NCBI GenBank assembly: GCA_963995525.1 | Contig: OZ023206.1 | Span: forward strand, 22,370,371-22,434,370 | Source: Escarpia spicata | Lineage: Eukaryota > Annelida > Polychaeta > Sabellida > Siboglinidae | Direction: 5' to 3' | DNA length: 64,000 nucleotides | Shown here: positions 17,690 through 34,636 of the stretch, one piece after another | How the letters are laid out: every line of letters starts with the position of its first letter | Numbering within the stretch: position 1 is the first letter of the stretch | The notes under the pieces: model-generated | What the model was told of the DNA's origin: nothing | Database searches by the model: none | What the model saw: the letters and a program-made list of their open reading frames with translations, nothing else | Program-made: the position numbers and the translations under genes

Positions 17690-17808
17690 TCGTAACGCAG
17701 CAACCACTTCCGGCAGTATATCGATGTTCAAAATTTCGACGTTTCCGTTGGAGTTTTTCTACTACCATTCAAGTGCAGGCCTCCTCTTGGAGTACGGCAA
17801 AAACACAG
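17690..17808 (+). promoter_or_regulatory. Probable promoter/first non-coding exon of the YR gene
   Basis: 'CACTTCCGGC' at 17705-17714 is a strong ETS-family site, common at the start of TATA-less housekeeping genes. A good splice donor (CACAG|GTAATT) lies at 17808/17809. The next acceptor with a usable start codon is at 18363. This pairing is inferred; I cannot place the transcription start. Confidence 0.4.
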
Positions 17809-18383
17809 GTAATTTGACAATTACTAATGTATAATTACTACTGCTAGTATATAATACGTTTTTCCAAAAACAATATAAGGTTTGGCAGTGTTAGTGCATT
17901 CTGTGGGTCAAATAGTGCCCCGGTTTGTGTCACTGTCTGCGCCTTAGCCTACGGCTTAGCTTCGCCTTAGCTTGAGATTTGAAATGAGCGAAAAGCAGTG
18001 CAAGTCGTCGATGCAAACCAGTGCGTCTTTTAGCTCTCGAAAGTGTGCTAAGTAACATATTTAAATTGTGCTTTGGATTATGGTCATTGATGAAATGAAC
18101 GCACTTAGGTTTCAAATTATAAAAAACAATATAGTAAATTTATATAGGGCGATTCCACGGAAAGTGAACCTGAGACAGTGGGAGGTAACTTGCTATAATC
18201 ATTAATTGCACTCGGTCTAGGATAGATAAATCTTGACCCATTTACTATGTCTACATATCCTTGTTATGAAACGAGTTCAAAAATATGACCACAACAACAA
18301 TATTTTTGTTAACAGTTATATATATATACTTTAAAAAAATTATGGAATCCATTTTTTTAATAGATAGCTGAGGCACCAGGAAC

Positions 18384-33300: not shown

Positions 33301-34636
33301 TGAAGCAGAAAACAGCACAACGGGCAATTTGCCAAGTAAGAACAAACATGCTGGCAAGATACACACGTACTTGGAGTATTGTTTTATGGAATCCAACCAT
33401 TAATATTCTGTAGCAGATTATTATTTCATTATCCGATTAGACTACCTTGTATTACGCCATAAGAATACCAATAAAAATCTATATTTTAAAAAATACATTA
33501 CAAATAAATGTATTACAAATAAAAGGTTGTTAGTGCATGGAGATAGTAATACAGAATACAACAATGTAAAGTTGTAAGTATGAATGATATGACTTCACTA
33601 GGAGTATTACCAGAGATGTGTAAATTACAAATACACAAATTAGAATATTCTCTAAATGGCCATTAAAGATAGACAAGCAGGATTTGTTACTTGATAAATG
33701 CACTTTTAGGTGAACAAAAATGATTTAGAGATATGTGTTTGTTATAAATGTGAACCATATTGATAGTATGTCAGACTACAGCAGACATATTTAAAGGGAT
33801 TCTTTGATAATTTTTAACTCTGTAATGTACGCAATTTTTAATTAACCCTGTTAATATAATTATTTCATGTAATTCTATGCCTTAATTTCATTAAAATTAT
33901 GTTTTATTAATCACTAATGACCCTAAGAATATAACTTCGCATACGCAGAGTTTCTAGTTTGGGCATCCGCCTATGCTATCCATATAAGGCATGGTCATGA
34001 ATATTCGGTTCCGTCCGTCAGGCTTCGTATAAACGTTATCAACATATGTGCGTTTGAATTAGCAACCGCCATTGAGTGAATCATGGCCGAGGCCAGTAAA
34101 TTTATGAAAAGGAAACATGGATCAGTTGCGTTCATGAATATTCATTATAACTAGGCTGCATAATCATCCACGTGGCAGCAAGCTCAAAATGAGAACACAA
34201 TTATTTATCGGCTTTTTACGCAGATAACACCCAAATTATGTATATATATGCAAGACATAAGTAGCAGAGAAAGTACTTATGGGAAATTATCACGTTTTGA
34301 TACAGCACATCTCGAATGTATGTATGCTTACAAAGAATCCCTTTTAAAGTTTTTTTTCGAAAGACTATTTTCATGGGTAGCCTTAACAATAACGGTTACA
34401 TCGCACATTTTTGTTTGCAGTAGAAACAATTGTATAAAGTGTTTTATAATAAAAAGTTTTCATTTTTCTTTTCAGGCAAAGTGGAAATCATGGCGTTTCT
34501 CAGCGCAACGAAGCCACCATGCTTAAAGCATTTAGAAGATCATTCTGCCTATTTAAAAACAAGGGCGCAGTTATTTAACAGGAGGAAAACCAAACAAAGG
34601 CGCCTCAACAAATGCTTGGTGGCAATGTCATTGTGA
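18384..34636 (+). CDS. Zinc-finger protein with tyrosine-recombinase (YR) domain and two micro-exon arrays; 29 coding exons, 1039 aa
   Basis: Exons: 18384-18428, 19331-19363, 19817-19898, 21303-21370, 21493-21550, 21778-21838, eleven micro-exons 22135-26120, 26411-26561, 27639-28649, 29053-29236, 29715-29969, 30430-30489, five micro-exons 30893-32652, 33234-33335, 34476-34636. Every border is AG/GT, every phase matches, and the total is 3120 nt with one stop. The start ATG is chosen because it is the only one whose exon leaves phase 0 for 19331 without a stop. Protein: basic start 'MPKKRIMPLTRGQQM', acidic region, acidic exon array (about 116-305), CxxC..HxxxxH finger (about 320), C2HC finger (about 385), recombinase core with Arg666, Lys713, Arg782, His805/His808 and Tyr817, acidic/'PRKRG' array (about 860-950), and a C-terminus starting with a Trp-containing segment. 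YR enzymes break and rejoin DNA through the tyrosine. In animals such domains occur in Crypton transposons and genes captured from them; this relation is inferred. Host gene versus element is open. Confidence 0.85.
22135..26120 (+). repeat. Intragenic array of 11 symmetric acidic micro-exons (about 802-bp two-exon unit)
   Basis: Exons 22135-22185 (51 nt), 22645-22689 (45), 22897-22959 (63), 23447-23491 (45), 23699-23761 (63), 24249-24293 (45), 24501-24563 (63), 25029-25073 (45), 25281-25343 (63), 25832-25864 (33) and 26070-26120 (51). All are multiples of three and all enter and leave in phase 2, so any subset keeps the frame. The long type encodes variants ending 'SVSADACKE'; the short type encodes 'HTEKTTDDSADASKE'. 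The repeat unit includes both introns: spacing of equivalent exons is 802, 802 and 780 bp, with near-identical intron sequence. Most acceptors read TGTTCTTCAG and donors GAGTAAGC, with the splice at GA|GTAAGC. Confidence 0.88.
26411..26561 (+). other. Exon encoding a C2H2-type zinc finger of the YR protein
   Basis: After acceptor TTTATCCTAG the exon reads 'VRPVRCCIYCHAVIAGGKLR' and then 'RHIFRQHKSE'. The C-x2-C and H-x4-H spacing, with about 12 residues between, gives a classical finger. Phase 2 in, phase 0 out. A second finger-like motif ('FCSDCKRF..WRHRKTC', C2HC) follows at the start of the 27639 exon. Paired fingers in front of a recombinase suggest DNA binding independent of the catalytic core. 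Confidence 0.8.
26813..27565. mobile_element. Non-autonomous DNA transposon with TTAA target duplication, in a YR-gene intron
   Basis: Terminal inverted repeats GGCAAGGCTGTACCCCTGAA (26813-26832) and its complement with one mismatch (27546-27565) are bordered on both sides by TTAA (26809-26812 and 27566-27569). A second inner pair, TACCCCTGAAAT / ATTTCAGGGGTA, lies just inside at 26833 and about 27517. The 753-bp interior has no meaningful open frame. TTAA duplications are made by piggyBac and Kolobok transposases; which one served here is not decidable from the ends alone. Confidence 0.88.
27639..29969 (+). other. Three exons of the tyrosine-recombinase core
   Basis: The exon 27639-28649 carries a helical region that should be the core-binding domain ('ELKKNVMQEMRELARLL') and the first catalytic Arg in 'TLFNGRRGEEPSRMLLTEW' (28551-28607). 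The exon 29053-29236 carries the beta-hairpin Lys in 'LHGKGRQFVPVLIP' (29113). The exon 29715-29969 carries the second Arg in 'GNRHRISTLYA' (29798), the 'HMGHTEAINRDNY' block with His (29867, 29876) and the nucleophile Tyr (29903-29905). The usual His three residues before the second Arg is Thr here. All other catalytic positions are kept. Confidence 0.85.
30893..32652 (+). repeat. Intragenic array of five symmetric micro-exons encoding acidic/basic repeats
   Basis: Exons 30893-30949, 31264-31320, 31650-31706 and 32122-32178 (57 nt each) and 32599-32652 (54 nt, or 51 if the second of two adjacent AGs is used). All are phase 1 in, phase 1 out. Each encodes 19 residues: 'AVADNNS', an acidic centre and a basic end 'PQPRKRG' (the last one 'PQPKKRG'). 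Copies 2-4 are identical at protein level. The first four exons share acceptor AATATGTTGTAG, and each is followed 60-70 bp downstream by a long CA tract. The basic ends resemble monopartite nuclear-localisation or DNA-tail motifs. Confidence 0.88.
31015..32318. repeat. Four long CA tracts in micro-exon array 2
   Basis: CA runs of roughly 120, 135, 245 and 72 bp lie at 31015-31136, 31387-31521, 31774-32020 and 32247-32318, each in the same place in the duplicated unit. CA-rich intronic RNA is bound by hnRNP L-type splicing factors; a splicing role here is inference. The histidine/threonine-rich open frames over these tracts are artefacts. Confidence 0.95.

Follow-up and report, generated by a model that had tools for sequence, protein, structure and literature searches.

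A 29-exon zinc-finger tyrosine recombinase gene in the annelid Escarpia spicata, tentatively read as a kept animal gene

Is an intact, intron-rich gene for a zinc-finger tyrosine recombinase (YR) in the genome of Escarpia spicata a captured host gene or a very unusual mobile element? An earlier note raised this question for a stretch of 64,000 nucleotides of contig OZ023206.1, hereafter the window. Rebuilding the splice model reproduced exactly the gene described there, with 29 coding exons, GT..AG borders at 28/28 introns and 1039 codons, in phase and without a stop. The coding region (18384-34636, forward strand) is 3120 nt long including the stop, beginning with an ATG at 18384 and ending with a TGA at 34636, and its donors and acceptors match the usual splice consensus. 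The gene had been started at 17690; a TGA lies in the ATG frame 12 nt upstream of the ATG, so that 17690-18383 could be a leader only, not coding. The features of the gene, in window coordinates, are as follows.

18384..34636 (+): whole coding region, 29 exons, 1039 codons, from the splice model; ends with TGA
18384-18428, 19331-19363, 19817-19898 (+): exons 1-3, N-terminus resembling the pre-SET stretch of relatives
19899..21302 (+): intron 3, at the SET position of SET-bearing relatives; no SET trace by tblastn
21303..21838 (+): exons 4-6, acidic linker with a DDNPF motif, found downstream of SET in P0116 as well
22135..26120 (+): exons 7-17, mini-exon tandem array encoding an acidic Ser/Thr-rich repeat
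26411..26561 (+): exon 18, C2H2 zinc finger 1, from tblastn and the relatives' alignment
27639..28649 (+): exon 19, zinc finger 2 (C2HC), helical region and opening part of the YR catalytic domain, including Arg667 (28572-28574)
29053..29236 (+): exon 20, YR domain with Lys713 (29113-29115)
29715..29969 (+): exon 21, YR domain, carrying Thr779 at the first-His position, Arg782, His808 and Tyr817 (29903-29905)
30430..32652 (+): exons 22-27, basic/acidic linker; CA microsatellites lie between the tandemly copied exons 23-26
33234..34636 (+): exons 28-29, C-terminal domain common to relatives, from alignment

Database relatives match exons 18, 19, 20 and 21 by tblastn with the proposed borders (best E 1e-81), which places the gene model above chance, and exons 28-29 correspond in alignment to the C-terminal region of several relatives (P0084 judged by eye). 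For exons 4-17 and 22-27, support comes only from phase, splice sites and repeat structure. These exons without homologue support, together with exon joins that are predicted, are what would favor a chance-made or mis-joined model, built from pieces of two genes or from a pseudogene; given that the order and phase of the core, N-terminal and C-terminal exons agree with those of relatives, we consider such a model highly improbable.

Residues 1-310 of the predicted product are acidic (24% D+E) and contain the exon 7-17 array. The two zinc fingers reported previously are indeed present, a C2H2 finger in exon 18 (about residues 318-338) and a C2HC finger in exon 19 (about residues 404-423), followed by the YR domain, which extends to about residue 839, where an intron lies, and then by a linker with the second array and the C-terminal domain. 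Comparison of a profile of 23 relatives with seven bacterial and phage YRs (XerD, XerC, lambda Int, FimB, FimE, IntS and Cre) using hhalign gave a probability of 90% (P 1.6e-6, score 59.9) across the catalytic motifs, while the controls for this score reached a maximum of 26.9 in 60 column-shuffled comparisons and 17.6 in reverse; a profile of 75 relatives gave 87% (P 3.8e-6) against known YRs. The phage_integrase profile search suggested earlier was borne out for the relatives: Phage_integrase is the Pfam family matched by more members than any other (11/75 relatives at E<=0.1, as well as 4/23 at E<=1 and 4/8 at E<=0.01). These matches, where printed, score 25-26 bits, below the curated cut-off of 27.1, however, and the window protein itself has no match in Pfam (0 families at E<=10); a scan restricted to exon 19 produced two weak matches, which were set aside as unrelated. 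In PHROGs, integrase is the best match for 4/6 relatives tested (E 0.018 to 1.3e-4), whereas the PDB returned 0 matches for the window protein and eight for the family profile, none of them a YR. The absence of a PDB YR and of a Pfam family and the sub-cut-off Pfam scores count against a YR-derived gene.

The catalytic residues are highly conserved. Across 104 rows, comprising 103 proteins from the first two similarity searches and the window protein, Arg667 is found in 100/102 letters, Lys713 in 99/99, Arg782 in 94/95, His808 in 92/95 and Tyr817 in 89/95, while position 779, the first His of the HxxR motif, is Thr in 82/95. In 36 hand-chosen rows, mostly from named species and leaving out P0042, P0048 and P0104 among others, Arg667 is present in 36/36, Arg782, His808 and Tyr817 in 34/34 each, and Lys in 31/35 (Ser in four oyster rows); Thr occupies position 779 in 31/34 and His in 0/34. 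All five catalytic residues are kept from hydrozoans to molluscs, and the almost complete active site claimed for the window gene is confirmed, lacking the first His alone. Taking the profile comparison together with kept Arg667, Lys713, Arg782, His808 and Tyr817, we assign the predicted domain to the YR superfamily, as Arg, Lys, HxxR, His/Trp and Tyr occur in the expected order and spacing, save for that first His, and the profile similarity is above chance. P0042 and P0048 (Saccostrea) and P0104 (Apostichopus) consist of two or three repeated finger-YR blocks with the YR end partly absent: P0042 and P0048 have no second half of the YR, and one of the two YR copies of P0104 has no GH motif. 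We count these decayed or rearranged YR parts against the reading of a kept gene.

Three similarity searches, each scoring about 8000 candidates from a protein database clustered at 90% identity, gave 28, 87 and 65 matches at E<=0.001 and, with isoforms and fragments counted, at least 162 distinct entries. Judged from these entries, the family is widespread among animals and recorded in databases as uncharacterized proteins only; named sources are bivalves, gastropods, an annelid, echinoderms and hydrozoans. Mercenaria LOC123565665 (P0001), Magallana P0002 and Hydra LOC105844230 (P0022) share the two fingers, YR core and C-terminal domain with the window gene, and several relatives also carry acidic repeats ahead of the fingers. 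In 53/76 relatives, a tail read-through pattern, albeit a loose one, fits an intron directly after the YR domain, as in the window gene. Pattern searches for relatives yielded 35 matches in IMG/VR and 25 in GTDB genomes, 0 confirmed in either, and none in phages, the few short patterns used falling short of proving absence; a non-exhaustive search of the open-access literature found no description of a SET-zinc-finger-YR family. The family may also resemble abundant fish proteins, a likeness not used as evidence. A precomputed PF04843 label on P0125 was dropped, as a Pfam scan at E<=0.01 did not reproduce it. The Magallana gigas isoforms P0002-P0007 differ by a 20-residue repeat unit, present in 2/6, and P0006 and P0007 show five scattered residue differences, a pattern that would fit duplication of near-identical core exons.

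In the tree, the window gene falls within a 16-row clade (support 100/100), in which each of the 11 named rows is from a mollusc; its core is at best 55% identical to relatives, and same-species paralogues are 26-77% identical to each other (12 pairs). Inside this clade, the branching of the oyster, ark clam and venus clam rows mirrors that of the species. The tree, built with uncharacterised animal relatives, is largely species-like inside clades, although a gastropod row and a starfish row pair (support 100/99) against species order.

An N-terminal SET domain (PF00856) is present in 14/162 entries among the matches listed, six of which are isoforms of one Magallana gene, and was confirmed by Pfam scan in 3/23 relatives and, of eight in a further scan, in P0143, P0111, P0116 and P0127; P0143 combines SET with a C48 protease domain (2.7e-8). 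In contrast to P0001, P0002 and P0022 (the last also with a kinase domain), the window gene has no SET, and the SET parts of these three proteins detected no remnant in the window (tblastn, E<=1). The nearest solved relative of the P0001 SET, the only one tested, is KMT5A/SETD8 (E 2.6e-26). Exons 1-3 resemble the relatives' N-termini, as 0/500 shuffles reached the score for P0001 and P0010, 3/500 for P0116 and 12/500 each for P0002 and P0003. The agreement is poor for the post-SET stretch (exons 4-6): 5/500 shuffles reached the score for P0001 and 19/500 for P0116, and the comparisons with P0002 (160/500), P0003 (81/500) and P0010 (147/500) are not significant. Judged by eye, the end of exon 3 coincides with the start of the P0001 SET, and the SET-less Ruditapes P0010 breaks at a similar place. 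We infer from these sequences that the window gene probably lost SET, the alternative being gain elsewhere. A tree of nine SET domains, with 2/6 inner branches starred, is too weak to date the SET-YR fusion.

The fine splitting noted earlier holds as a count of 29 exons, but mostly reflects tandem duplication of linker mini-exons, which make up 15/29 exons (11 in exons 7-17 and four in a second tandem array, exons 23-26), while the finger-YR core comprises four exons. Exons 7-17 are 33-63 bp each, with phase 2 in and out, in array units of about 762-802 bp, a clear case of fast linker growth by tandem duplication with the splice phase kept. Among the five units compared, units 2-5 show 0-1 differences over 96-108 exon sites and 2-34 over 650-694 intron sites, whereas the exons of unit 1 differ from the other units at 7-8 of 84-96 sites, more than its introns do. 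With small numbers and units that are not independent, these differences give no firm sign of selection, and the excess exon change in unit 1 counts against a kept gene.

Between a captured host gene and a very unusual element, the evidence leans toward a kept gene. We put at roughly one half the probability that the window gene is an ancient derivative of a mobile YR, kept as a gene of the animal's chromosome. This leaning stems from the long, intron-rich 16 kb structure, the strongly diverged same-species paralogues and the tree that is largely species-like inside clades; we also count in its favor the loose tail pattern, fitting a shared intron after the YR, and the YR core being found by tblastn in one copy within the 64-kb window. 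Clustering of the protein database at 90% would hide recent near-identical copies, which counts against this reading. The main rival, possible but less probable, is that the locus is an intact copy of a YR mobile element with introns, either Crypton-like or larger, with SET and protease accessories, moving by YR-catalysed integration. Its catalytic residues are kept, unlike those of DUF3504 genes (PMC3212892); P0143 carries a C48 protease beside SET, and Cryptons can carry C48 peptidases (PMC3212892); some species are rich in paralogues, with patchy pairing in the tree; and multi-exon zinc-finger YRs are described in PMC10871703 as integrases of endogenous nimaviruses, alongside unlinked decapod YR-like proteins. 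A mobile element sits poorly with 28 introns over 16 kb and with diverged paralogues. No direct repeat >15 bp was found between the flanks 14000-18383 and 34637-42000, a weak argument, as animal Cryptons are without terminal repeats (PMC3212892).

Related short repeats lie inverted on both sides of the gene (window 16836-17131 and 38734-38982), accompanied by AT microsatellites; we rejected this inverted dispersed repeat as a pair of terminal repeats because of the AT microsatellite and unrelated surroundings. The surrounding mobile DNA, described earlier as badly decayed, is only partly so: of two non-LTR-type reverse-transcriptase frames (window 7772-9742 and 12424-13554, both +), the first is open over 656 codons. 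The window also holds a THAP-domain reading frame at 41646-42212 (-; E 8.2e-11), a large type I polyketide synthase gene at 52601-60680 (+; KS, AT, DH, KR, ACP and thioesterase, in three long open frames) and an assembly gap, a run of 200 N at 6301-6500.

If the gene is kept, its product would be nuclear and would bind a DNA site by way of both fingers and the helical region that precedes the catalytic domain. The YR fold could nick and reseal DNA, with Tyr817 forming a 3'-phosphotyrosine, and the acidic repeats would serve as a tether. In paralogues with SET, that domain would methylate chromatin where the protein is bound; the window paralogue would have lost it. That animals keep a host-encoded, catalytically competent YR as a chromatin-programmable recombinase or nicking enzyme acting on their own DNA, with a KMT5A-type SET fusion predating the cnidarian-bilaterian split, is a bolder proposal that we regard as doubtful. 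A domesticated YR serving DNA or protein binding only, as proposed for WOC/ZMYM genes, seems unlikely: the family's replaced first active-site His (Thr in 31/34, His in 0/34) and the combination of fingers and SET, which suggests a regulator, would suit it, whereas Arg, Arg, His and Tyr in 34/34 rows with letters and Lys in 31/35 argue against it. A kept YR family with fingers, and in some members a SET domain of histone-methyltransferase type, would make the use of a recombinase by animals on their own DNA testable; otherwise, the family would reveal overlooked intron-rich mobile elements carrying chromatin-modifying modules.

Among known systems, a DIRS retroelement was rejected, as the window gene contains no reverse transcriptase, and neither the nearest such frames (12.4-13.6 kb) nor the Gypsy-type parts (35.6-36.4 kb) fall within it. 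Crypton transposons have a YR as their only recombinase, with a C48 peptidase in some (PMC3212892), and share this sole recombinase with the window gene, for which no element borders were recognised and one core copy was found in the window; no SET partner is described for Cryptons in the passages of PMC3212892 consulted. Nimaviral zinc-finger YRs and decapod YR-like proteins are similarly described as having a C2H2 finger and a YR with partly complete key residues, one group being multi-exon like the window gene, and are tied to telomere or 28S rDNA insertion (PMC10871703). The DUF3504 genes WOC, ZMYM2/3/4, QRICH1, KCTD1 and KIAA1958 are Crypton-derived (PMC3212892) and, like the window gene, combine in an animal gene a YR-derived domain with zinc fingers or other regulators. 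No DUF3504 Pfam match was found for the window protein or among the 25 commonest families listed for its relatives. DUF3504 genes have lost most catalytic residues (PMC3212892), whereas the window family keeps them, save the first His.
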